The position numbers and the translations under genes were made by a program. 37,665 nucleotides of DNA. It comes from Prevotellaceae bacterium (GTDB taxonomy: Bacteria; Bacteroidota; Bacteroidia; Bacteroidales; UBA932). How positions within the stretch are numbered: position 1 is the first letter of the stretch; every line of letters begins with the position of its first letter. Shown piece after piece: positions 5,011 through 28,009 of this stretch. The stretch lies in the NCBI GenBank assembly GCA_031265155.1, contig JAISDB010000148.1:1-37665 (forward strand), given 5' to 3'. Below the pieces are notes generated by a model. It was not told where the DNA came from. It saw nothing but the letters and a program-made list of their open reading frames with translations, and did no database searches.

Positions 5011-6303
5011 ATGAAACTGTCGATAGAAAATATTCGCAAATTTGTAAGCGATGATGAAATTGCAGCATTGAAAGCAAACGCAGAACAAAGTCTTAAAATG
5101 TTGCACGATAAAACAGGAGAAGGCAACGATTTTCTCGGCTGGGTAAATCTTCCATCTCAAATCACCGAAAGCGAGATTGATGATATTCAGGCTACAGCCG
5201 ATAAAGTTGCAAAGTTAGCCGATTTTGCAGTTGTCATAGGAATAGGCGGCTCGTATCTCGGAGCAAAGGCTGTTATTGAGGCTTTATCGCACAGTTTTGT
5301 TAATTTTAAAACAGAAAAAAAACATCCTCATGTAATTTTTGCAGGACAGAACATCAGCGAAGATTATGCTTTTGAACTGTTTGAAACACTTAAAGGACAC
5401 AGCGTTGCCGCCATTGTAATTTCAAAATCGGGAACAACTGTCGAACCGGCAATTACTTTTCGTTTGATTAAAAAGTATATTGAAGATGCCTGCGGCATTG
5501 AGGAGGCGCGTGAACGTATTGTAGCTGTTACCGATAAGGCTCGCGGAGCGATGAATACAATAGCGAGAAAAAACGGTTATAAAATGTTTGTAATTCCCGA
5601 CGATGTTGGCGGGCGCTTTTCCGTGCTTACGCCCGTAGGGCTTCTGCCTGTTGCCATCGCAGGCTTTGATATAAAAAAACTTGTAAAAGGCGCTGCCGAT
5701 ATGGAAAAGGCGACGGATGTAAATATTGCTTTCGAGCAAAATCAGGCATGTATTTACGCTGCAGCGCGAAATGCCCTGTACGGAAAAGGAAAAAATGTGG
5801 AAATTTTAGCCAATTTCAATCCGAAGCTTCATTCGCTCGCCGAATGGTGGAAACAGCTTTACGGCGAAAGCGAAGGTAAAAACGGAAAAGGCATATTTCC
5901 CGCAAGCGTTGATTTTACTACTGATTTACACTCGCTTGGACAGTATATTCAGGATGGGAAGCGCATGCTGTTTGAAACTGTTTTGAGCGTAGAAAATCCC
6001 AAACACGAATTTGCCGTACCTGCCGACGAAGAAAACATTGATGGCTTGAATTTTGTTGCAAATAAACGTATTGATGAAATAAACAAATGTGCGGAAGCAG
6101 GCACAGTACTCGCTCACGTTGATGGCGGCGTGCCTAATATTCACATATCTGTTCCCGAAATCAGCGAATACAGTATCGGACAATTGATTTATTTTTTTGA
6201 AAAAGCATGCGGCATCAGCGGCTATATGCTTGGAGTAAATCCTTTCGACCAGCCCGGAGTTGAAGCATACAAAAAAAATATGTTTCGACTGCTTGGAAAA
6301 TGA
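5011..6303 (+). CDS. pgi: Glucose-6-phosphate isomerase
   Basis: Interconverts glucose 6-phosphate and fructose 6-phosphate in glycolysis and gluconeogenesis. At 430 residues it belongs to the shorter bacterial type. The first SIS domain has [10 protein letters not shown] (77-86) and the phosphate-binding SKSGTTVE (138-145). The second has [14 protein letters not shown] near 200, the active-site QLYGESEG with Glu286, and His307 in TTDLHSLGQ. Near the C-terminus [12 protein letters not shown] supplies the late catalytic lysine region. It follows gpsA in the same operon, linking hexose and triose phosphate metabolism to lipid precursor supply. It ends 33 bp from a convergent gene. Confidence 0.97.
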
Positions 6304-6336
6304 CATGTCACAGGCAAGCCTGTTTGCAGATGCCGT

Positions 6337-7227
6337 TTATTTTGAATTTATCATATCCAGGCATTTCCACAGGCTGCGCATTGACTTTAACGATACGAAA
6401 GGTTCTGTTTTTGCTGTAATTGACTGCACAAGATTTTTCAGTTCGTTTCGTTCGATAAAAGGAATTTCGTCAAGTGTGAAAAGTTCCTTTACCGGCTCTG
6501 ATATTGATGTTTTGTAAATAAGATTATGCCATTCGCGTTTGCGCAAATCAATAAGCGCCATGTTTTTTTCGGCGACAATTGTGAGTTCGTGGTTGTCGTA
6601 AAATGCGCATGGATTGGCTTTTATGCTTGCGCTTATTCCGTTCAAAAATTCAAAGTTCATTTGCTGCAATTCGGATTTCCGAACAAAAAGCGGTAATTTT
6701 CTATTGTGCATTGACACAACTTCGCTGTCGGCAATCTTAATTATGGCGAATATTTCAGAAATTATGTCAATAACCGTACGCTGATGGCTGTAATCTACGC
6801 TTTTATCGAAATTTATATAACGGATGTTATTATACGTTTCGATTATTTCGCAAATTCCCCAATAATACATTTTAGACATTGATACTTGAACAGTAACTTC
6901 GGCTTCGTCGGCGAAATTGCATAACGAACCTGTGAAATCATTCAAAACGCAATTATAGTCATCAATTAAAACATGTTTCAAATTACGGATTGCATCTATT
7001 ATAAGCCGGCGCTGTATTCTGTTGCCGCAAAAAACAATTATATCCGACGCATCGAGCAAATCCTGATAATTGTCAAAACGATGTTCATCGCAATTGACAA
7101 ACGAAACATCGTCTTTTGGAAAATATGTACCGCTAAACGACAAAGTATCAAGTTTGTCGATAGCGTTGCGATATTCTTTTGCCTTGCCCGAAAAACTTAC
7201 AAATCCTATATTTAATTTCTTTTCCAC
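6337..7227 (-). CDS. Rossmann-like protein, diverged Gfo/Idh/MocA-type oxidoreductase (tentative)
   Basis: The track start at 7248 is a TTG that overlaps the likely promoter sequence. A GTG at 7227 (VEKKLNIGFVSFSG) is a better start and gives 296 residues. KLNIGFVSFSG and then ASDIIVFCGNRIQRRLIIDAI and LKHVLIDD resemble the first beta-alpha-beta units of an NAD-dependent oxidoreductase of the Gfo/Idh/MocA kind. However, the usual glycine-rich loop and the EKP motif are not preserved, so cofactor binding is doubtful. The C-terminal half (FVRKSELQQMNFEFL ... EWHNLIYKT) is not recognised. It is convergent with pgi and 36 bp downstream of the nuclease gene on the same strand, so the two may be cotranscribed. 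Confidence 0.6.
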   Translation of the reverse strand: MEKKLNIGFVSFSGKAKEYRNAIDKLDTLSFSGTYFPKDDVSFVNCDEHRFDNYQDLLDASDIIVFCGNRIQRRLIIDAIRNLKHVLIDDYNCVLNDFTGSLCNFADEAEVTVQVSMSKMYYWGICEIIETYNNIRYINFDKSVDYSHQRTVIDIISEIFAIIKIADSEVVSMHNRKLPLFVRKSELQQMNFEFLNGISASIKANPCAFYDNHELTIVAEKNMALIDLRKREWHNLIYKTSISEPVKELFTLDEIPFIERNELKNLVQSITAKTEPFVSLKSMRSLWKCLDMINSK

Positions 7228-16718: not shown

Positions 16719-16757
16719 ACCTGACAGGCTTCAAAAACCTGTCAGGTCTTGTTTTTT
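16719..16757 (+). terminator. Strong intrinsic terminator (hairpin of module A)
   Basis: ACCTGACAGG and CCTGTCAGGT form a perfect 10-bp stem with a 9-nt loop, followed by CTTGTTTTTTTATT. It lies downstream of the small membrane protein gene and 18 bp before the 57-bp box shared with the region near 27.7 kb. Confidence 0.8.
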
Positions 16758-16765
16758 TATTGACC

Positions 16766-16822
16766 ATTTTCATTTATATTTATTGGTTAACAAATGATTT
16801 GTTCCATTTTTAAGGAGCAACT
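16766..16822. repeat. 57-bp conserved box, copy A
   Basis: This stretch from ATTTTCATTTATA to AAGGAGCAACT aligns without gaps to 27752-27808, with 47 of 57 positions identical by eye. Both copies sit between a hairpin and a tandem array. Read on the minus strand, both can encode a similar C-terminal peptide ending at the same stop codon (LLLKNGTNHLLTNKYK here). Confidence 0.8.
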
Positions 16823-17147
16823 GATTAATGATAAACGAAGGATAGCCGGCTCGCGACAGAACTAAATACATGCTCAGAGCATCAAATTCCTCGTTCCGAG
16901 TGAAGACGTTCTCGCTTTTACTGACAAATTCCTCGTTCCGAGTGAAGACGTTCTCGCTTTTACTGACAAATTCCTCGCTCCGAGTGAAGACGTTCTCGCT
17001 TTTACTGACAAATTCCTCGCTCCGAGTGAAGACGTTCTCGCTTTTACTGACAAATTCCTCGCTCCGAGCGAGAACATCCTCGCTTTTACTGACAAAAGCC
17101 TCGCTAAAAGCGACAAAATGGCAGCACAGTACGAGTATCCGCTGCAT
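16770..17147 (-). CDS. Possible heptad-repeat protein encoded across the 42-bp array
   Basis: The track gives a 162-residue frame beginning inside the downstream gene. A start at the ATG 17147 (MQRILVLCCHFVAF) avoids that and gives 125 residues. The body is a run of seven-residue units (SEAFVSK, SEDVLAR, SEEFVSK, SENVFTR, repeated) with paired hydrophobic residues at a fixed heptad position, as in a coiled coil. The tail is LLLKNGTNHLLTNKYK. Two other frames across the array are also open, because 42 is a multiple of three, so openness alone proves little. The regular heptads and the conserved tail frame at copy B are the arguments for coding. I see no promoter on this strand. Confidence 0.3.
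   Translation of the reverse strand: MQRILVLCCHFVAFSEAFVSKSEDVLARSEEFVSKSENVFTRSEEFVSKSENVFTRSEEFVSKSENVFTRNEEFVSKSENVFTRNEEFDALSMYLVLSRAGYPSFIINQLLLKNGTNHLLTNKYK
16884..17093. repeat. Tandem array, five units of 42 bp
   Basis: Units start at 16884, 16926, 16968, 17010 and 17052. Units 1 and 2 are identical; units 3 and 4 differ from them by one base (GTTCC to GCTCC). Unit 5 has several changes, including AGCGAG...CTCGCT, which makes a perfect small hairpin. Degenerate unit remains extend to about 17114. There are no unique spacers, so this is a minisatellite and not a CRISPR. It ends about 90 bp before the promoter of the next gene. Confidence 0.95.
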
Positions 17148-17212: not shown

Positions 17213-18694
17213 ATGACACAAAACATTCTAAAAACAGCGATGATTGCCGCAGCGGCAATTTTTATCGCAGGTGCGGCAAGCGCACAGCGCCACCCTGCCG
17301 AACCTGAAATGGTATTTGTAGAAGGCGGCACGTTTACAATGGGCTGCACCGCCGAGCAGGGAAGCATCTGCAAAGATAATGAAAAGCCGGCGCACAGCGT
17401 AACGGTAAACAGTTTTTATATCGGCAAATATGAAATAACGCAGGCGCAGTGGGAAAGTCTCATGGACAGCAATCCATGCTTTGTGCAGGGCGCCAGTCTT
17501 CCTATGGGACATTTAACATGGGATTCCGCTCAGGAGTTTATCTCGCGCCTGAACAAAGCTACGGGTAAAAACTATCGCCTGCCCACCGAAGCCGAATGGG
17601 AATATGCAGCGCGCGGCGGCAGTCGCAGCAAGGGATACAGATACAGCGGCAGCAACAACCTTGACGAAGTGGCATGGTATTACAATAATTCTTCCGACAA
17701 GTACTCCCAAAAGCCTCACAGTGTCGGCACCAAAAAGCCCAACGAACTCGGCATTTACGACATGAGCGGCAACGTCAGCGAATTTTGTTATGACTGGTAT
17801 GGCGGCTACTCCGCCTCGCCTCAGCAAAACCCTACTGGACCCGGCGATGGTCGCGAATGTGTGTTTCGCGGCGGTGGCAACATGTCGGATGCAGAATACT
17901 GTCGCATTTCTTTCCGTAGCGGAGAGATACCAACCGAGTGGAATAGCAATTTCGGTTTCCGCGTGGCGCTGGATGGAGCAGTGACAACGATAGGCGCAGA
18001 TACGGCAACCGTAAAACGCTATCACTTTGCACCGAAGATGGTATTTGTGGAAGGCGGCACGTTCACTATGGGCTGCACCGCCGAACAGGGAAACAGCTGC
18101 GACAGCGACGAAAAGCCCGCGCATAAGGTAAAGGTTGGCAGTTTCTACATCAGTCAATATGAGATAACGCAGGAGCAGTGGTACAGCGTACTGGCATACC
18201 GCAATCGAAGCCAGTTTGCAGGGAAAAACCGTCCTGTCGAAATGGTAACATGGAATGACGTTCAGGAATATATTGCGCGTCTGAACGAATACACAGGCAG
18301 GAACTACCGCCTGCCAACCGAAGCGGAGTGGGAATATGCGGCTCGCGGCGGCAATCGCAGCAAGGGCTACAGGTACAGCGGCAGCAACAACCTTGACGAA
18401 GTGGCATGGCATGAAGGCAATTCGGAAAGGCAAACCCACGATGTGGGAACGAAAAAGCCAAATGAACTCGGCATTTACGACATGAGCGGCAACGTAGGCG
18501 AATGGTGCATGGATTTTTATGGCAAGTATGATGCCTCGTCGAAGCTTCGCCTGAGTCCTTATGGATACGTGGTTCGCGGCGGATACTGGAAGTACGATAT
18601 GGATAACTGCCGTGTTTCGCGCCGTTATCAGCAAGACTCCAATTACATTAGCAGTGCTATAGGCTTCCGCCTTGTATTGCCGGTAGAAGAATAG
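17213..18694 (+). CDS. Secreted protein with two SUMF1/FGE-fold domains
   Basis: A 493-residue protein with a cleavable signal peptide (MIAAAAIFIAGAASAQ). It has two copies of the formylglycine-generating-enzyme-like domain, about residues 31-262 and 274-491. Each has MVFVEGGTFTMGCTAEQG, YEITQ.QW, NYRLPTEAEWEYAARGG and GIYDMSGNV. The FRGG...GFRVAL end differs most between the copies. The two active-site cysteines of true FGE are not seen: only one Cys (EYCRIS, DNCRVS) lies near that region. The protein is thus more likely a binding or structural module than a sulfatase activator. The near-identical central stretches (SKGYRYSGSNNLDEVAW) point to a recent internal duplication. Base composition looks richer in G+C than the neighbours. 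Confidence 0.88.
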   Translation: MTQNILKTAMIAAAAIFIAGAASAQRHPAEPEMVFVEGGTFTMGCTAEQGSICKDNEKPAHSVTVNSFYIGKYEITQAQWESLMDSNPCFVQGASLPMGHLTWDSAQEFISRLNKATGKNYRLPTEAEWEYAARGGSRSKGYRYSGSNNLDEVAWYYNNSSDKYSQKPHSVGTKKPNELGIYDMSGNVSEFCYDWYGGYSASPQQNPTGPGDGRECVFRGGGNMSDAEYCRISFRSGEIPTEWNSNFGFRVALDGAVTTIGADTATVKRYHFAPKMVFVEGGTFTMGCTAEQGNSCDSDEKPAHKVKVGSFYISQYEITQEQWYSVLAYRNRSQFAGKNRPVEMVTWNDVQEYIARLNEYTGRNYRLPTEAEWEYAARGGNRSKGYRYSGSNNLDEVAWHEGNSERQTHDVGTKKPNELGIYDMSGNVGEWCMDFYGKYDASSKLRLSPYGYVVRGGYWKYDMDNCRVSRRYQQDSNYISSAIGFRLVLPVEE

Positions 18695-19097: not shown

Positions 19098-22000
19098 ATG
19101 AATTTAACAAGAACAAAAAAGAACAGGCTGAAAAAACTGTTGACAGGAAATAGCCTGTATTTGTGTATGCTGTTGATTCCTTTGGGTTTGTCAGCCCAAA
19201 CCGGAATTGCGGTTAAAGGTCAGGTTACCGATAAGGATGGACCTCTGTCAGGAGTTGTAGTTTTGGTTCAGGGAACCAATAAATATGCTGTTACAGACGA
19301 TAATGGCGATTATTCCATTACGGTAAGCGATGAAAATTCCGTTTTATCGATTTCTTACGTCGGGTATAAAACGGTAAACGAACAGGTGGCAGGCAGAACG
19401 CTTATCAATATCATGCTTGAAGAAGATATTGCCACGCTCACAGAATCTGTTGTGGTGGGCTATGGGCAGATGAAACGAAGCGATTTGACAGGTTCGGTTG
19501 TTTCCGTTTCATCTGATGTTATTACAAAATCGGTGGTTACTTCTATCGATCAGGTATTGAACAGGGCGGCAGGCGTGCAGATTACTCAAAACTCAGGTAT
19601 GCCCGGCGCAAGTACATCTGTAAGAATCAGAGGTATAAGTTCGTTGAACGCTTCTAACGAGCCTATTTATGTGATAGATGGAGTAATTATTGATGGCGGT
19701 TCGTCAAGCGGTAACAATACAAACACAAATGCAATATCGTTTGTCAATCCTGCCGATATTGTTTCGATAGACATATTGAAAGATGCTTCGGCTACGGCGA
19801 TTTATGGCTCAAGAGCATCGAACGGCGTTATTATCATTACAACCAAACGCGGACAAAAAGGCGATGCTTCGGTTACTTACAACGGTTATGCAGGCTGGCA
19901 GCAAATACCCGGAAAACTGGATGTGTTAAACCTGCGGGAATATGCAATACACCGTAATACGCTTGCAGAATTGGGCATTTCGCAATGGAACAGCAATTTT
20001 GTTCGTCCCGACTTGCTGGGAAACGGTACCGACTGGCAGGATGAATTATTTACAAGCGCTTTTATGCAAAGTCACAATATCTCCATTTCGGGAGGAAGCG
20101 AACGAAACACTTACGCAATGACGGCAGGATATTTGAATCAAGACGGTATTGCAGCAGGTTCGGGATTTAAGAGATTGAACCTGACAGGAAATTTTGATGC
20201 GCAGGTAAAAGATTTTTTGAAAGCCGGAATAAACTTTGCATTAAGCAATTCAAATCAAAAACTGACTGTTTCCGATCAATCGCTGATTTCGGTTGCATTA
20301 AGAACAACGCCCGATGTTCCCGTACGCAATGCCGACGGCTCTTTTGCAGGAACAGAAGAGCAGTTTATGCCGCGCAATCCGATGGCATTGGCATCGCTGG
20401 TTAATAATACAAATGAAACGACCGGAATACGCGGAAATACTTATCTGGAAGCCAAAATTTGGGACGGATTAACCGTACGTACCGAATTGTCCTTTAACTA
20501 CGGCATTACAAATACATATAGATTTCAACCCAAATACAGCCTTTCATCAACTCAATTTGCCGACGACAACCAGGGCGATTATAACAAGCAGTACAACAAG
20601 TACTGGAACTGGAATACTGTTGCAACGTACGGCAAAACGTTCGGCGTGCATACCATCAACGCCATGCTGGGGCACGAAATGCAAAAATCATTTTGGGAAT
20701 TTATATCGGGAAGCCGGACAGGATATATTGTGAATACCGGAATGCCTGGTTTGAATTTGGGCGATGCTACAACTGCCACCAACAACGGATATCCCGAATC
20801 CAGCGCAATTCAATCGTTTTTTGGTCGCGCGTTCTACTCGTTCGACGATAAATATTTAATAACCGCAACATTACGGCGGGACGGCTCATCAAAACTTCCG
20901 GCGGAAAATCGCTGGGACTGGTTTCCATCTGCAGCCGTAGCGTGGAAAATATCCAATGAAACATTCTTTAAAAACATCGACTTTCTTAAACATGTTGATA
21001 ATGCGAAACTGCGCTTAGGCTGGGGACTTGTAGGCAACCAGAATATTCCAGACAATAATGCTTTCCGATCCGTGTACAGTACGGTAACAACAAATTTCGG
21101 AACAGGCTTGCTGGCAAGCAATACGCCAAATACAAACATAGTATGGGAAAAAACGGGTTCATACAATATCGGGCTGGACTTGAATCTGTTTAACAACCGA
21201 ATCGAATTCATTGCCGATTTCTATTACAAGAAGACGCAGAATCTGTTGCTTCAGGCATCGCTTCCTGTTTATTCGGGAACAAGCGGAACCGGCGGAAGCG
21301 CCCGCCCGTGGGTTAATCTCGGTTCACTCGAAAATAAAGGCTTTGAACTGACATTGAGTACCGTAAATCTTAACACAAAAGATTTCCTGTGGCGTACAAA
21401 TATCACGTTTTCGTTAAATAGAAATAAAATGCTGTCGATTAACACTCAAACAGGTACAGATGTCCGAAGCATTGCAGATCCCGAAGGCGGCACAACTACT
21501 CTTACGCGAACGGTCGTAGGTCAGCCTGTAGGACAGTTCTACGGCTATCAGATCATAGGACGTTTTGAAAAGCCAACCGATTTTTATTACAAGGATGCCG
21601 ACGGTAATATAAAACGTACTCCCGTTATGTTTGACCTGCCGATAGATGAACTTAACGGCGTATGGATTGGCGATTTTATGTATGCAGACCGCAACGGAGA
21701 TGGAAAAATTGATGAAAACGACCTTACCTTTATAGGAAATCCCGAACCTAAATTTACTTTCGGAATCAGCAATACCTTTACTTATAAAAACTGGGATTTG
21801 ACTGTATTTCTCACAGGCTCGGTAGGCAATAAAGCAGTAAATTACATGCGGAGATGGATGGAAAATCCGCGGCGAAATATTTCAAACCTGTTTTCAAAAG
21901 CCACGCGGTATGCACAGACAGGATTGATTAACCCGAACGGATCCGACAATGATTACAGGAATCTTCAAATTACAGGCGGCGACAGCGACATGCCCCGCAT

Positions 22001-22310
22001 ACCTCTTTCAACCGCAACTTCCGACTACGACTTTGCATTCAGCGACAGATATGTTGAAGATGGTTCTTATCTTCGTATTCAGAACATATCGCTCGGATAT
22101 ACCTTACCTTCCAAATTAACCGGCAAATTCGGCGTCAGGACGGTTAAGCTGTATATTAACCTGCAGAACGTATATACATTTACTGATTATTCCGGTTACG
22201 ATCCCGAAATAGGCATATCGTACAGCAACGGCAACCAGTTAACCGGAGTTGATTTCGGACGCTATCCTTCACCGCGTATTTATACATTTGGAATTAATAT
22301 TACTTTCTAA
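19098..22310 (+). CDS. SusC/RagA-type TonB-dependent outer membrane transporter
   Basis: A 1070-residue outer membrane protein that imports oligosaccharides with its SusD partner. A signal peptide ends near GLSAQ. A carboxypeptidase-regulatory-like domain (about 38-110) has VKGQVTDKDGPLSGVVV. The plug follows with the family signatures ESVVVGYGQMKRSDLTGSV, IYVIDGVI and ATAIYGSRASNGVIIITTKR. The rest is the beta-barrel ending in YTFGINITF with a terminal aromatic residue. There is no N-terminal STN domain, so signalling to an anti-sigma factor is not expected. It starts a four-gene locus with a GH10 xylanase, so the likely cargo is xylo-oligosaccharides. Confidence 0.97.
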   Translation: MNLTRTKKNRLKKLLTGNSLYLCMLLIPLGLSAQTGIAVKGQVTDKDGPLSGVVVLVQGTNKYAVTDDNGDYSITVSDENSVLSISYVGYKTVNEQVAGRTLINIMLEEDIATLTESVVVGYGQMKRSDLTGSVVSVSSDVITKSVVTSIDQVLNRAAGVQITQNSGMPGASTSVRIRGISSLNASNEPIYVIDGVIIDGGSSSGNNTNTNAISFVNPADIVSIDILKDASATAIYGSRASNGVIIITTKRGQKGDASVTYNGYAGWQQIPGKLDVLNLREYAIHRNTLAELGISQWNSNFVRPDLLGNGTDWQDELFTSAFMQSHNISISGGSERNTYAMTAGYLNQDGIAAGSGFKRLNLTGNFDAQVKDFLKAGINFALSNSNQKLTVSDQSLISVALRTTPDVPVRNADGSFAGTEEQFMPRNPMALASLVNNTNETTGIRGNTYLEAKIWDGLTVRTELSFNYGITNTYRFQPKYSLSSTQFADDNQGDYNKQYNKYWNWNTVATYGKTFGVHTINAMLGHEMQKSFWEFISGSRTGYIVNTGMPGLNLGDATTATNNGYPESSAIQSFFGRAFYSFDDKYLITATLRRDGSSKLPAENRWDWFPSAAVAWKISNETFFKNIDFLKHVDNAKLRLGWGLVGNQNIPDNNAFRSVYSTVTTNFGTGLLASNTPNTNIVWEKTGSYNIGLDLNLFNNRIEFIADFYYKKTQNLLLQASLPVYSGTSGTGGSARPWVNLGSLENKGFELTLSTVNLNTKDFLWRTNITFSLNRNKMLSINTQTGTDVRSIADPEGGTTTLTRTVVGQPVGQFYGYQIIGRFEKPTDFYYKDADGNIKRTPVMFDLPIDELNGVWIGDFMYADRNGDGKIDENDLTFIGNPEPKFTFGISNTFTYKNWDLTVFLTGSVGNKAVNYMRRWMENPRRNISNLFSKATRYAQTGLINPNGSDNDYRNLQITGGDSDMPRIPLSTATSDYDFAFSDRYVEDGSYLRIQNISLGYTLPSKLTGKFGVRTVKLYINLQNVYTFTDYSGYDPEIGISYSNGNQLTGVDFGRYPSPRIYTFGINITF

Positions 22311-22321
22311 ATTAAAATAAG

Positions 22322-23980
22322 ATGAATATGAACACTAAAAAATTAATATATTCGATTACGGTTGCATTAACCTTATCGTTGAGTTCGTGCAGCGATTTTC
22401 TTGAAATTACGCCAAGAAATGTAGTAACGGGAAGCAGTTTGACTGCCGAAAATCTTTCAGCGCTCACATCGCCCCTTTATAATATTGTATGGGCTGATTT
22501 TAATTCTCAATTTTATTATGGTTTGGGCGATGGCGCTTCGTATAATTTATACGCGCCCTATTCAAACTATATTTATCCTTTTGCCGATTTTTCGGTAACA
22601 GGACTTACAGGACCGCTGGTAAACGCATGGTCGTCGTTCTATCAGGTTGTGCAGCAAGCCAACAAAATAATAATAAGCGTAAACGAAAGTTCTGCAAGTC
22701 AGGATGCGAAAAATCAATACATTGGCGAAGCGCGTTTTATGCGGGGAACTGCCTACTGGTACTTGGCATCGCTGTGGGGAAATGTGATTATATCCGAAGA
22801 CCCTGCGCAAACAGTAAGCAATCCGTTGATGAATACGCATCGCAGCAGCGATGTTTTCGAATTTGCCATACGCGATTTGGAATTTGCGGCAAAATATTTA
22901 CCTGAAAATCCTCCGCAAGCAGGACGTATCGACAGATATGCTGCATTTGGAATGTTATCGCGGGTATATTTGGCGTATTCGGGATTTGTATCGGGACAGT
23001 CGAATCCAAATTCGGGAACGCGCGACAGCGAATATCTGGATCTTGCAAAAAAAGCGGCAGAAAAAGTTATCGGTGAAAGCAAATACAGGCTAATGGATAA
23101 CTATCCGGATCTGTTTAAAGTGGAAAATAACAACAATTCGGAATCCGTATTTGCTTTTCAATGGGTGCCTGGAATGAACAGCAGTACGGGCTGGGGAGTC
23201 ATCAACAATCATCAGGCGTATTTTGCATACAGTTCGGAAATTACCGGCGATGATGCCGCCTGGGGCGACTGGACGCGAGCTACGTATGATGTGATTAAGG
23301 AATACGCTCTTGCCGACACAATTCGTCGCAGGGCTACGTGGATGGGCTACGGAGATTTTTATCCGGAAATCAATAAAGCCAACGGCGGCTTACTTTGTGA
23401 ACGAAGCAACGGACAGCAGTACCTTAATGTAAAAAAAGGCGTTGTCGGTTCTACAAAAGATAATCCTGCCATTGCGCGTATGAATTCCGCCCTGAACACA
23501 TACATGCTGCGTCTGGCTGAAGTTTATTTGAATTACGCCGAAGCAATACTGGGCAACAGCGCCGCTACAACCGATGTTAATGCACTGCTGTATTTCAATA
23601 AGGTTCGCTATCGTGCAAAAATGCCCGAAAAGTCAAGCATTTCATACGAAGATATACGTTACGAGCGCCGTGTTGAATTTTGTATGGAAGGTCAATACTG
23701 GTATGATTTGATTAGCCGCTCGTATTACAAGCGGCAGGATGTTATAGAATACCTTATTGCTCAACACAGAGAAATTATTGTACCGTTTCTTTTTGAATCG
23801 CCCAATAATTTAAGTCCGGATACTTCGAGAGATGAAGCCTCACGCGCTATCGGCAATATTGATGCATCGGTATTTTTATTGCCTTATCCATCGGATGAAG
23901 TGATACAGAATCCATTATTGAGGGAAGCTCCGATTCCTTATCAGTTTACTGAAGAAAGAATAACAGATTTATTTAATTAA
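22322..23980 (+). CDS. SusD/RagB-family glycan-binding lipoprotein
   Basis: A 552-residue surface lipoprotein forming the lid of the SusC channel. It has a lipobox at TLSLSSC (Cys23) followed by SDFLEITP, the usual SusD beginning. Tetratricopeptide-like helices include GEARFMRGTAYWYLASLWG. The C-terminal RagB/SusD part contains TYMLRLAEVYLNYAEAI and IRYERRVEFCMEGQYWYDL, both hallmarks of the family. It starts 11 bp after susC, with a second in-frame ATG two codons in. Ligand is inferred from the xylanase in the same operon. Confidence 0.96.
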   Translation: MNMNTKKLIYSITVALTLSLSSCSDFLEITPRNVVTGSSLTAENLSALTSPLYNIVWADFNSQFYYGLGDGASYNLYAPYSNYIYPFADFSVTGLTGPLVNAWSSFYQVVQQANKIIISVNESSASQDAKNQYIGEARFMRGTAYWYLASLWGNVIISEDPAQTVSNPLMNTHRSSDVFEFAIRDLEFAAKYLPENPPQAGRIDRYAAFGMLSRVYLAYSGFVSGQSNPNSGTRDSEYLDLAKKAAEKVIGESKYRLMDNYPDLFKVENNNNSESVFAFQWVPGMNSSTGWGVINNHQAYFAYSSEITGDDAAWGDWTRATYDVIKEYALADTIRRRATWMGYGDFYPEINKANGGLLCERSNGQQYLNVKKGVVGSTKDNPAIARMNSALNTYMLRLAEVYLNYAEAILGNSAATTDVNALLYFNKVRYRAKMPEKSSISYEDIRYERRVEFCMEGQYWYDLISRSYYKRQDVIEYLIAQHREIIVPFLFESPNNLSPDTSRDEASRAIGNIDASVFLLPYPSDEVIQNPLLREAPIPYQFTEERITDLFN

Positions 23981-23991
23981 AATATATCAAA

Positions 23992-25299
23992 ATGAAAAAC
24001 ATAATATACAAAAGTCTTTTTGCATGGCTCGCGATTGTAAGCGCATCGGTGATTTGCCTTACATCGTGCAAAGACGATGAAAATAACTTGAATACGCCAT
24101 TGAAAATTACAGCAGTTTATTTGGAAGATTCACAATCTTCGGTACCCGACAGGCTCGTGGAATATGCCCGTCTGGGACAGACCCTGCGCTTGGAAGGTTC
24201 CGGATTTAGCGGTTTGCAGAAAATATATATAAACGGACGTTCTACCTTTTTCAATACCGCACTGTTGACAGATGCCAACGTGTTTGTAAGCATTTCCGGC
24301 GAAACTCCGATATTGGATGCCGACCCTGATATAAGAAATACAATTATTCTTGAAAAAAACGGAACTCAATACACATATCCGTTTGAAATTCGGCTGGCTG
24401 CGCCTTCAATTACTGGCGTTTCGCACACGATGCCTCAAGCAGGCGAAGAAATTACCGTTTACGGTACAGGCTTGCAGGGAATAGACAGGGTAATATTCCC
24501 CGGCGATGTTGCAGTAACGGGCGGGATAATATCCGACAATGTGGATGGTAAGTACTGTATTGTTACGGTGCCTGCCGGAATTTCCGACGATGGCGGCTCT
24601 TTGTTTATCGAAGGTATTAACGGCGGAGCATATTCTCCTGCTTATTTTAATTTCAAACGTGGGCTGTTTCACAATTTCGATAATGTAAATAACTATTCGT
24701 GGTCGTCGGGTATTGATGATGCAGGAACGCCTTTGACAGATATAATTCCTGCGTTGGGAAGTCAGCCGAAATCACAGGGCGGATACCAGTGTTTCAATTT
24801 TAGCGGAGCAACCATTGCCGCCAACGCCGATAAACGCTACTGGACTAACTCTGCCGACTGGCCTGCTGCAATGTTGAATGTGATACCCGGGAATACCGCT
24901 GCCGGTATGGCTGCAGTACAAATGGACATTTATGTCGAAGGAAACTGGAATTCGGGAGTTATTCGTATGGTAATGGCTGATGGTTCGGGTACCGACAGAT
25001 ATTGCATGCTTTATCGTCCGTGGTACAGAAACGGAGCTGTCGTGCCGTTCGAAAATCCGGGCTGCTGGTACACTATTACGCTTCCGTTCAGCGACAGCGA
25101 CGATTATTCCGGAAAAACTTTTGTCGATGTTGTTGCTTCGATGTCAAATGCAAGCTATAAGCAGTCGGGACCATGGTTTCATAATACAGGAATAACTGAT
25201 GTTTTTGAACCTGAAGCAACAGATGTAAAAGTTTATTTTGATAATTTGCGCGTAGTGCCGCTGGATACGCCTGTTTATGATGAATTTGGGGATGAATAA
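23992..25299 (+). CDS. Surface glycan-binding lipoprotein (SGBP-B type)
   Basis: A 435-residue lipoprotein in the third position of the locus, where SusE/SusF-like or SGBP proteins sit. The lipobox is VICLTSC (Cys26), and KDDEN after it fits the Bacteroidota surface export signal. Two IPT/TIG-like Ig domains follow (GQTLRLEGSGFSGLQKIYING near 62-82 and GEEITVYGTGLQGIDRVIFPG near 150). From about 225 the C-terminal domain, with FDNVNNYSWSSG and aromatic-rich SADWPAAML and GPWFHNTGITD, resembles the SGBP-B carbohydrate-binding domain first described for xyloglucan. It would hold xylan at the surface for the GH10 enzyme encoded next. Confidence 0.88.
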   Translation: MKNIIYKSLFAWLAIVSASVICLTSCKDDENNLNTPLKITAVYLEDSQSSVPDRLVEYARLGQTLRLEGSGFSGLQKIYINGRSTFFNTALLTDANVFVSISGETPILDADPDIRNTIILEKNGTQYTYPFEIRLAAPSITGVSHTMPQAGEEITVYGTGLQGIDRVIFPGDVAVTGGIISDNVDGKYCIVTVPAGISDDGGSLFIEGINGGAYSPAYFNFKRGLFHNFDNVNNYSWSSGIDDAGTPLTDIIPALGSQPKSQGGYQCFNFSGATIAANADKRYWTNSADWPAAMLNVIPGNTAAGMAAVQMDIYVEGNWNSGVIRMVMADGSGTDRYCMLYRPWYRNGAVVPFENPGCWYTITLPFSDSDDYSGKTFVDVVASMSNASYKQSGPWFHNTGITDVFEPEATDVKVYFDNLRVVPLDTPVYDEFGDE

Positions 25300-25329
25300 A
25301 ATAATGTATAAAATTTTAAGATTAACAAT

Positions 25330-27504
25330 ATGAAATATTTTAAATTTATTTTCCCTGCAATATTACTTGCAGGAAGTTTATTTTCGTGCAATGATGTTGA
25401 CGAATTTAAATATGGCGATGGAAGGACTCCTCTAACCGATATAAAAGACATTCCGCTTTCATTTGACGAAAAACTTGGACTGTACGGAAATCTGACGGAA
25501 TATATTCCGTCGGGAATGTTATTGGGTTGCGGCATTGATATGGTTGATGGCTATATGAATAACGAAACATACCGCAATTTGACAAATGCAAATTTTAACG
25601 CCGTTACGGCAGGTTATCACATGAAGCACGGCGCTGTTGTAAGCAATACCGGTTCATTGAATTTTCAGACTGTTGATAATTTCGTTAACGCTTTGCCTGC
25701 AAATATTGATTTGTTCGGACATACGCTTGTATGGCATCAAAATCAGAACAAAACATATCTTAATCGGCTTACAGCTCCCGAAGTGATAGCTGCGCCGGGC
25801 GAAAATCTGCTGGATTTAAGCGCATTGGAAGATGGAACATTTACAGGCTGGGGCAGAAATAATGCATCGGGCATAACCTTATCAACAGGCGAAGGACGCA
25901 GTGGAGGAGATGCCGTACGTCTGGAAACGATCACCGGTGACAACGAGTGGGATACTCAACTTACTTCTCCCGAAATTCCCGCTGTAACAGGGCATACTTA
26001 TGAACTTTCGTTTTGGATAAGATCCGAAGCGTTTGGTCAGGGCAGAGTTTCGTTTGCAGGAATGACAAACAACTATCCGTGGGTAAACGGAGGAGCGTTG
26101 TTTGATACGGATGAAACATGGCAGGAAATAACTTACTCAGATTTGGAAGCGGCAGACGACGTTATAAAAATATCTTTCGATTTGGGAAAAACAGCAGGCG
26201 TATATTATATTGATATTAACTCAATAAGTGTAACAGATAAAGATGCGGAACCCGCCTACGTAAATCTGATTGCAAACGGTACTTTAGATGATAATTTGGA
26301 TGGATGGGCAAAATGGAATGGCGCAGACAACTGTATGACGCAAGCGGCAACAGCCGATTCATACGAAGGAACAGGCGCCCTGCAAGTAGAAAACGCTACG
26401 GCAGGCAACGAATGGGACACTCAGATACATGTAGATTTTACATCAGCGTTAGAGGAAGATAAGAATTATGAAGTTTCGTTTATGATAAAGTCGGATGCTG
26501 ATGCTACCATGAGATGCTCAACAGCGGGCGGAACGGCTCATTATCAAGGCACACAAAACACAGGCGCTTCGTGGACTAAAATAACATGGGAATTTGTCGG
26601 ACACGGCGACGAAACAGGATTGAATTTTGATCTTGGAAAAAGCGCTGCAACATATTACATTGATAACGTATTGGTAAGAGAAATTATTGATGGCGGAGGC
26701 GGAACAATTGTCATAGATAAAACATGGGAACAGAAAGTACAGATTATTGACGATGCAATGCGTAACTGGATTACCGAAATGGTAAATCATTATAAGAACC
26801 GTGTACACGACTGGGATGTCGTTAACGAACCAATGACCGAAGGCGGAAATGTTCGTCCGGGACAGGAAGTTACGGAAGCAGCCGATGAGTTCTATTGGCA
26901 ATATTATCTTGGCAACGACTATGCCGTTAAAGCATTTCAGTATGCGCGCGCAGTCTGCAATGCCGGCGATAAGCTGTTTATCAACGATTATAATCTCGAA
27001 TCGAATAACTCAAAGCTCGAAGGAATCATAAGTTATGTAAATTATATTGAGCAGCAGGGTCAAACGGTTGATGGCATTGGAACTCAGACTCATGCTTATA
27101 TACGAAATGCAGACGAATCTACAATAAACGAGATGAAAACAGGAATCGACAACATGTTCCAAAAATTAGCCGCTACCGGAAAACTTGTCAAAGTATCGGA
27201 ACTGGATATTCGAGTAGGTTCTACTTCTCCAAGTCCCGACCTGCTGCAGCTTCAATCGGATATGTACCGTTATGTGATTGAATCGTACGTAAGAAACGTA
27301 CCTCAGGCACAGCGTTACGGAATTACAATATGGGGAATAAGCGATGGCAACAACGGTTCGTGGCTCGAAGATGATGCTCCCTGCGTTTGGGATGGTAATT
27401 ATAACCGTAAACCTGCGTACATGGGCGTTGCAAACGGACTGGCAGGATACGATGTAAGCGCCGACTGGGACTACGGTTATATGACCGACTCGCAAAATCC
27501 GTAA
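25330..27504 (+). CDS. Endo-1,4-beta-xylanase, GH10 with two inserted CBMs, lipoprotein
   Basis: A 724-residue lipoprotein (GSLFSCND, Cys20) that cleaves the xylan backbone, probably at the cell surface. The catalytic barrel is split. Its first part (about 60-148) has LGCGIDMVDGY, FNAVTAGYHMKHG and FGHTLVWHQNQN. Two carbohydrate-binding modules of the CBM4/16-like type follow (about 157-302 and 310-452), each with NEWDTQ and a terminal YYIDN or YYIDI strand. The barrel then resumes: the acid/base Glu500 is in WDVVNEP, IGTQTHAYI follows, and the nucleophile Glu624 is in KVSELDIRV. This layout is known from Bacteroides ovatus and Prevotella Xyn10 enzymes. The usual ENxMK motif of the -2 subsite reads GYHMK. 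Confidence 0.96.
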   Translation: MKYFKFIFPAILLAGSLFSCNDVDEFKYGDGRTPLTDIKDIPLSFDEKLGLYGNLTEYIPSGMLLGCGIDMVDGYMNNETYRNLTNANFNAVTAGYHMKHGAVVSNTGSLNFQTVDNFVNALPANIDLFGHTLVWHQNQNKTYLNRLTAPEVIAAPGENLLDLSALEDGTFTGWGRNNASGITLSTGEGRSGGDAVRLETITGDNEWDTQLTSPEIPAVTGHTYELSFWIRSEAFGQGRVSFAGMTNNYPWVNGGALFDTDETWQEITYSDLEAADDVIKISFDLGKTAGVYYIDINSISVTDKDAEPAYVNLIANGTLDDNLDGWAKWNGADNCMTQAATADSYEGTGALQVENATAGNEWDTQIHVDFTSALEEDKNYEVSFMIKSDADATMRCSTAGGTAHYQGTQNTGASWTKITWEFVGHGDETGLNFDLGKSAATYYIDNVLVREIIDGGGGTIVIDKTWEQKVQIIDDAMRNWITEMVNHYKNRVHDWDVVNEPMTEGGNVRPGQEVTEAADEFYWQYYLGNDYAVKAFQYARAVCNAGDKLFINDYNLESNNSKLEGIISYVNYIEQQGQTVDGIGTQTHAYIRNADESTINEMKTGIDNMFQKLAATGKLVKVSELDIRVGSTSPSPDLLQLQSDMYRYVIESYVRNVPQAQRYGITIWGISDGNNGSWLEDDAPCVWDGNYNRKPAYMGVANGLAGYDVSADWDYGYMTDSQNP

Positions 27505-27573: not shown

Positions 27574-27643
27574 ATGTTTATAGGCATATTTAGTCGTTCC
27601 TTAAAAAGTATATTTTTCAGAGATAAAAGCGTATAAAGATGTT

Positions 27644-27683
27644 TTTTCTGTTACTTTTGCCTTGACGCAAAAGTAACAGAAAA
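27644..27683. repeat. 17-bp inverted repeat (hairpin)
   Basis: TTTTCTGTTACTTTTGC and its exact complement are separated by 6 nt (CTTGAC). Palindromes of this type, with GTTACTTTTG arms, recur in Bacteroidota genomes from what I recall. It could act as a bidirectional terminator. Confidence 0.8.
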
Positions 27684-27700
27684 GGAAAAAATTATTTATT

Positions 27701-27744
27701 TTGCAGGGTTTTATGCTTGTATTGATTAAAACCCTGCAATTTTT
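27701..27744 (+). terminator. Hairpin of module B
   Basis: TTGCAGGGTTTTA and TAAAACCCTGCAA form a perfect 13-bp stem with a 13-nt loop, followed by TTTTTG. It lies 12 bp before copy B of the 57-bp box, matching the place of the terminator at 16719-16747 before copy A. Confidence 0.65.
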
Positions 27745-27751
27745 GCATCTT

Positions 27752-27808
27752 ATTTTCATTCATAATTATTTATTAATAAATGTTTTGTAGCCTTTTTAAG
27801 GAACAACT
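27752..27808. repeat. 57-bp conserved box, copy B
   Basis: Ungapped counterpart of 16766-16822 (47 of 57 identical). On the minus strand it reads LFLKKATKHLLINNYE and a TGA at the same position as in copy A, but a TAG just upstream closes the frame, so no protein crosses this array. Confidence 0.8.
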
Positions 27809-27883
27809 ATTTATATTGAGTCTGATAAAAGATTACAGTTATAATTGTGGTTTATAAATTAAATCAACAGATCAGTCATTGGA

Positions 27884-28009
27884 TAGCTTAGTGACCTTTT
27901 ATAAATAACTCAGTAACCTTTTATAAATAGCTTAGTAACCTTTTGCAAATAGCTTAGTAACCTTTTATAAATAGCTCAGTAACCTTTCATAAGATAGCTT
28001 AGTATCGAC
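27884..28009. repeat. Tandem array of about 5.5 units of 22 bp
   Basis: Units of the form TAGCTTAGTAACCTTTTATAAA start at 27884, 27906, 27928, 27950 and 27972 (the last 23 bp), with a partial sixth at 27995. Units differ by one to three bases. There are no spacers, so it is not a CRISPR. The unit is not a multiple of three and carries stops, so it is noncoding. The stretch from 28010 to the ubiX stop shows nothing else. Confidence 0.9.

Follow-up and report, generated by a model that had tools for sequence, protein, structure and literature searches.

The window analysed here is a stretch of 37,665 nucleotides, contig C208 of the genome of a Prevotellaceae bacterium (2.84 Mb in 228 contigs). 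Base-by-base reading covered 1.03 Mb (36%) of that genome. The window contains two loci, A and B, at each of which a 57-bp box is followed by a tandem array. Array A lies upstream of a gene of the FGE-sulfatase family (17213-18694), and the same arrangement is found in G003, a sister species that exact pattern matching against named genomes equates with the MAG Prevotellaceae bacterium Gx481_bin100 (JAIRZQ01). We take the latter to come from a termite-gut sample. Positions 19098-27504 hold, on one strand, a gene for a TonB-receptor-plug protein, two more genes, and a GH10 xylanase-like gene, which together look like a polysaccharide-utilisation cluster. The element at locus B is intergenic, between the GH10 gene and a flavoprotein gene. 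In what follows, t1 denotes the end of the element that carries the box and t2 the other end, which reads GTATATTTTTCAGAGATAAAAG just inside its tip. The features are:

16719-16747, + strand: hairpin A, terminator-like, 5' of box A, with a perfect 10-bp stem (ACCTGACAGG/CCTGTCAGGT) and then a T-run (TTGTTTTTTT)
16766-16822, + strand: box A, a truncated MITE consisting of the terminal 57 bp (t1 end) alone, tip TTTTTAAGGAGCAACT; starts 18 bp after hairpin A
16823-16882, + strand: spacer A, 60 bp from the t1 tip to array A, partially homologous to the spacer at C217; ATTAAWGATAAAYG is common to G003
16883-17105, + strand: array A (TRF: period 42, 5.3 copies, 95% matches); starts 61 bp past box A
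17106-17143, + strand: tail past array A, common to C217, its first part also at C36 and in G003
27588-27591, no strand: left ATTT, putative target-site duplication; site empty in G003
27592-27808, + strand: MITE B, a complete 217-bp short form with paired inverted ends, t2 end at 27592, t1 end at 27808
27592-27607, + strand: left terminal inverted repeat of MITE B, AGTCGTTCCTTAAAAA
27648-27679, + strand: internal hairpin of MITE B, CTGTTACTTTTG...CAAAAGTAACAG, kept in other copies
27701-27739, + strand: internal hairpin of MITE B, TTGCAGGGTTTT...AAAACCCTGCAA, kept in other copies; the copy-B hairpin of the preliminary description
27752-27808, + strand: box B, the terminal 57 bp (t1 end) of MITE B
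27809-27812, no strand: right ATTT, putative target-site duplication
27883-28004, + strand: array B (TRF: period 22, 5.5 copies); starts 75 bp past box B

The preliminary description of this DNA had reported the order of hairpin, box, and array at locus A, and all three parts are present with the spacings it gave, array A running about 12 bp further than it had placed the end. Its second copy near 27.7 kb is likewise real: boxes A and B are identical at 47 of 57 positions (82%), and their array units differ (42 vs 22 bp). The likeness of the boxes is not due to chance, since blastn matches box A to MITE B with E=1.8e-12. The idea that the hairpin is swappable between copies does not survive, as it compares an internal hairpin of the MITE (B) with a hairpin that lies outside the MITE and is unrelated to its sequence (A). 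Hairpin A is of a dispersed type, with 5 copies in the 1.03 Mb, one of them 4.5 kb and another 7.5 kb from any MITE end. Four of the five copies of this hairpin, CCTGACAGG...CCTGTCAGG (16719-16747 of the window; L032:4680; L109:9300; L110:1747), lie less than 140 bp from an array of period 21-23 or 42 bp. As to box A, blastn against a complete MITE (L045:9433-10027) aligns exactly positions 539-595 of the latter, at 88% identity, and finds nothing convincing of further MITE sequence 5' of the box.

The box is one end, the last 57 bp at t1, of a small, putatively non-coding MITE family with about 100 copies scattered over the genome. Its inverted ends read AGTYGYTCCTTAAAAA...TTTTTAAGGARCRACT, and neighbouring matches face each other. 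The core of the end, TTTTTAAGGARCAACT, with up to 2 mismatches, occurs at 143 sites in the 2.84-Mb genome vs 18 for a backwards control pattern, and a 30-base t1 pattern has 48 matches vs 0 for its control, so the box does belong to a dispersed family, as had been proposed. Profile search found 47 t1 and 57 t2 ends (104 in all) in the 1.03 Mb, and 27 complete pairs there have inward-matching 16-bp ends. Paired copies mostly span 182-604 bp, in size classes of about 180-220 and 430-605 bp; a few measure only 78-90 bp, and some copies are ends alone. Strict t1 matches number 48 in this genome, 16 in G003, and 5 in G006; the pattern is absent from the other 58 of 61 genomes searched, including the congener G001. 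Among these 61 related genomes, then, the MITE is known from three species of one genus only. Very short palindromes (about 50-78 bp) of two t1-like ends face to face were also noted (L073:4283-4360; L033:5138-5189; L015 about 310-381).

In keeping with a MITE, the copies have terminal inverted repeats at both ends and are short, numerous, and intergenic, and no transposase was seen in them. At locus B, moreover, the site is empty in a relative: the alignment with G003 (L198) runs straight through, with neither MITE nor array, and at the point of array B there is a single ATAGCTYRGT. Of 15 inspected pairs, 5 have the same 4-mer on both sides (ATTT, AAAT, ATTT, ATAT, AATT), a number partly explained by the preference of the insertion sites for AWWT. 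Those flanking MITE B agree with the empty site in G003, and a 4-bp target duplication is likely across the family.

This is a new MITE family, probably of IS5 type, a kind already known. We infer the link to IS5, and a likely parent in an IS5-type element, because the stop codon of a truncated IS5-family transposase (L071:260-1231; PF01609; NCBIfam NF033578 at 272.5 bits, just under the 275-bit cut-off) falls inside a perfect inverted-end copy, AGTCGTCCCTTAAAAA, at its 3' end, and because a similar end, GCTTGTTAAGGAGAGATT, stands downstream of a related G001 transposase. The L071 fragment is present in a single copy, is missing its N-terminus and second end, and shares only the terminal repeat with the MITE. 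No transposase of the L071 type was found in G003, and no intact copy of such a parent was seen. Two other candidates were set aside. L033:5140-7546, where t1 and t2 stand 2.4 kb apart as they might in an autonomous insertion sequence, holds an ordinary gene and no transposase, and the transposase of C162 that adjoins a t2 end (L039) is degraded and was read as a separate insertion.

The arrays are something else: a separate, genus-wide class of intergenic minisatellites of about 21, 22, or 42 bp that does not depend on the box. TRF periods in the genome peak at 21 (16 rows), 22 (17), and 42 (11). The units are unrelated between families, and in some cases a 42-bp unit is a dimer of two 21-bp halves. 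This is so for array A, whose two halves are related (identity at lag 21 of 0.57 vs a mean of 0.26 over lags). Bacterial minisatellites, or VNTRs, are tandem units of tens of bp whose number differs, and which homogenise, between relatives; here, in distinction, the period is fixed near 21-23 bp or multiples across unrelated sequences. Unrelated intergenic arrays with the common 21/22- or 42-bp period are spread over loci L032-L110 (e.g., L096:1921-2211, L104:235-418, L057:6641-6890).

Most arrays have no box. Relatives of array A (L045:10124, L033:18576, and L143:6599 in G003) include one at C217 beside a t1 end and one at C36 with neither t1 end, box, nor spacer. Arrays of a second family stand beside t1 ends at C17 and C220 and without one at C217; L033:18576 (family A) and L045:5549 (family 2) are examples free of the box. 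G001, which has no match to the t1 pattern, carries 21-bp arrays, the longest with 13 copies. The orthologue of array A in G003, upstream of the same FGE-sulfatase family gene, lies 34 bp from a t2 end, and its units are differently homogenised. Because of the box-free arrays, those of G001, and this orthologue, the arrays evidently do without the box, and each locus shows concerted evolution of its own. In G003 the array and the FGE-sulfatase gene are found between two MITE ends (contig C10, L143:6046-8481), at a place where this genome has one MITE only (C217, L045:14230-19023); the G003 segment was either relocated between MITE ends or joined wrongly in the assembly.

Two general accounts of the units were tried and rejected. 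Array units are only slightly more self-complementary than expected (mean z 1.1, with p<0.05 in 8 of 55 rows), against palindromic units as a general rule. One frame of array A is open, but a coding repeat is contradicted by 22-bp arrays such as B, whose period does not preserve a reading frame, and by array tails that change frame from one species to the other. Some arrays do fold into very stable hairpins (L033:18576, z=-11; L042:206, z=-9.9; L049, z=-10), and one might therefore read the module as a regulatory or structured-RNA unit of a terminator and repeated hairpins. This has next to no chance of being right: folding is not unusual in the window's own arrays (z=-1.95 for A, +1.5 for B), array B is missing from G003 at an otherwise conserved locus, and in an Rfam search of loci A and B no family reached its gathering score.

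Do box and array nonetheless belong together? Arrays occur within 150 bp outside 8 of 47 t1 ends, against 0.9 expected from random intergenic points (P 0.002), and outside 1 of 54 t2 ends, where about 1 is expected. With the window left out and duplicated modules counted once, 5 of 44 t1 ends have arrays (Poisson P about 0.0015). When t1 and t2 are contrasted directly over independent loci, the difference is weak (P 0.09, or 0.14 with G003 included), and in G003 alone 0 of 13 t1 ends have an outward array within 150 bp. Part of the excess at t1 comes from nesting, the array at L040 adjoining a fragment of a second MITE, and from joint duplication, since window 16766-17143 is 82% identical to C217 over 393 columns and C17 is 80% identical to C220 over 620, the box included in both cases. 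The association claimed in the preliminary description thus stands in part: different units do lie near several copies of the box, and more often than by chance outside t1, but no array lies within 150 bp of 39 of the 47 t1 ends. A box widespread with no arrays nearby, which that description had itself named as fatal to its proposal, is largely what is found. Nor does the array begin at a fixed distance from the box, the eight distances being 47, 61, 62, 75, 76, 93, 93, and 136 bp.

The observed arrangement is real but mostly ordinary. Very probably, intergenic repeats of two sorts, independent of each other, happen to be neighbours here: the end of an IS5-type MITE and minisatellites with a period of two helical turns. 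According to this model, the MITE, non-autonomous and with 16-bp inverted ends, would be moved in trans, presumably by an IS5-family transposase, and would insert into AT-rich sites (AWWT), with a probable duplication of 4 bp. The 21/22/42-bp minisatellites would grow, shrink, and become homogenised where they stand, through slippage or unequal recombination. MITEs would have inserted near some of the arrays, and some segments of box and array (window A with C217; C17 with C220) would later have been duplicated jointly. The model leaves unexplained the residue of arrays on one side, outside t1, and the period of two helical turns common to unrelated arrays. The former counts against it, since an asymmetry between t1 and t2 is not predicted if the two repeats merely share intergenic space by coincidence. 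So do the small number of pairs with identical flanks (5 of 15) and the fact that the sole transposase copy of this type is truncated and scores under the cut-off.

That asymmetry is what one would expect if the t1 end seeded arrays, hairpins or transposase nicking after insertion causing replication to stall or restart and so producing tandem duplications just outside. Locus B, where G003 lacks both MITE and array, fits as well, and there the two may be causally linked in time. We consider such seeding very unlikely all the same, given the many array-free t1 ends, the same array families free of the box elsewhere, the 21-bp arrays of G001, the variable distances, and, in G003, the lack of arrays outside t1 and the abutment of the locus-A array on t2. 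The same findings fail to support the proposal of the preliminary description that the box, now seen to be a MITE end, is a site where repeats are generated or inserted, although the absence of both MITE and array from locus B in G003 leaves it a small chance. It is highly improbable, too, that a transposon end induces tandem repeats in adjoining host DNA on one side only, with a repeat length set by the geometry of DNA (about 21-22 bp, the span of two helical turns, or dimers of that) and not by sequence. Alternatively, box, spacer, array, and tail might form one composite unit that moves or duplicates, comparable to a minisatellite-bearing MITE. The two joint duplications agree with this, as do an array family found inside MITE-derived sequence (L041, L040) and a rarer element with similar ends and an internal 22-bp array (L036:16347-16610, L042). 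We think it unlikely, for the matching 4-mers of B and L040:13150-13729 directly abut the tips of the MITE, with the array falling outside them, the homologue of array A at C36 lacks box and spacer, and no second terminus was found past the arrays. The juxtaposition of MITE end and independent minisatellite remains the preferred reading, and by it the two-copy "module" is explained as a transposon end beside fast-evolving repeats.

The closest published case is BrickBuilt, a MITE of Porphyromonas gingivalis whose leader and tail enclose a 23-bp array as an internal part of the element, every copy using variants of one repeat (PMC4596501). Like BrickBuilt, the present elements belong to Bacteroidales, are intergenic, have inverted ends resembling IS5-family elements, and are associated with tandem repeats whose unit spans about two helical turns. 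Unlike it, the arrays of the window start beyond the t1 tip, at 61 and 75 bp from it, the majority of MITEs are without an array, and the array sequences are unrelated. The inverted ends also differ, GAGACCTTTGCA (GAGACC-type) in BrickBuilt vs AGTYGYTCCTTAAAAA (AGTYGYTCC) here, as do the units (23 bp vs 42 and 22 bp). The same paper mentions 22- and 41-bp repeats, and describes PgRS/MITE464 of P. gingivalis, another MITE associated with a repeat close in length to those here (41 bp), though one with internal repeats and other inverted ends. The rarer element, about 260 bp long (L036:16347-16610; L042, about 6090-6350), has one end reading TTTTTAAGGAGCAACT and the other degenerate; with its array internal, its layout is nearer to BrickBuilt than is that of the main MITE. 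Nothing specific was found in the literature on termite-gut MITEs or on 21/22-bp bacterial arrays. The spike in periods at 21, 22, and 42 bp and the one-sided excess of arrays at t1 pose testable questions on the origin of bacterial minisatellites, and repeats of this kind fragment draft genomes.

A tandem repeat of a different kind lies at L033:7589-9103, which encodes a protein resembling pseudouridine synthases; its long N-terminal extension is built of 34-residue units in tandem (102-bp repeats in the DNA). The length of this array may differ in G003 (L151).
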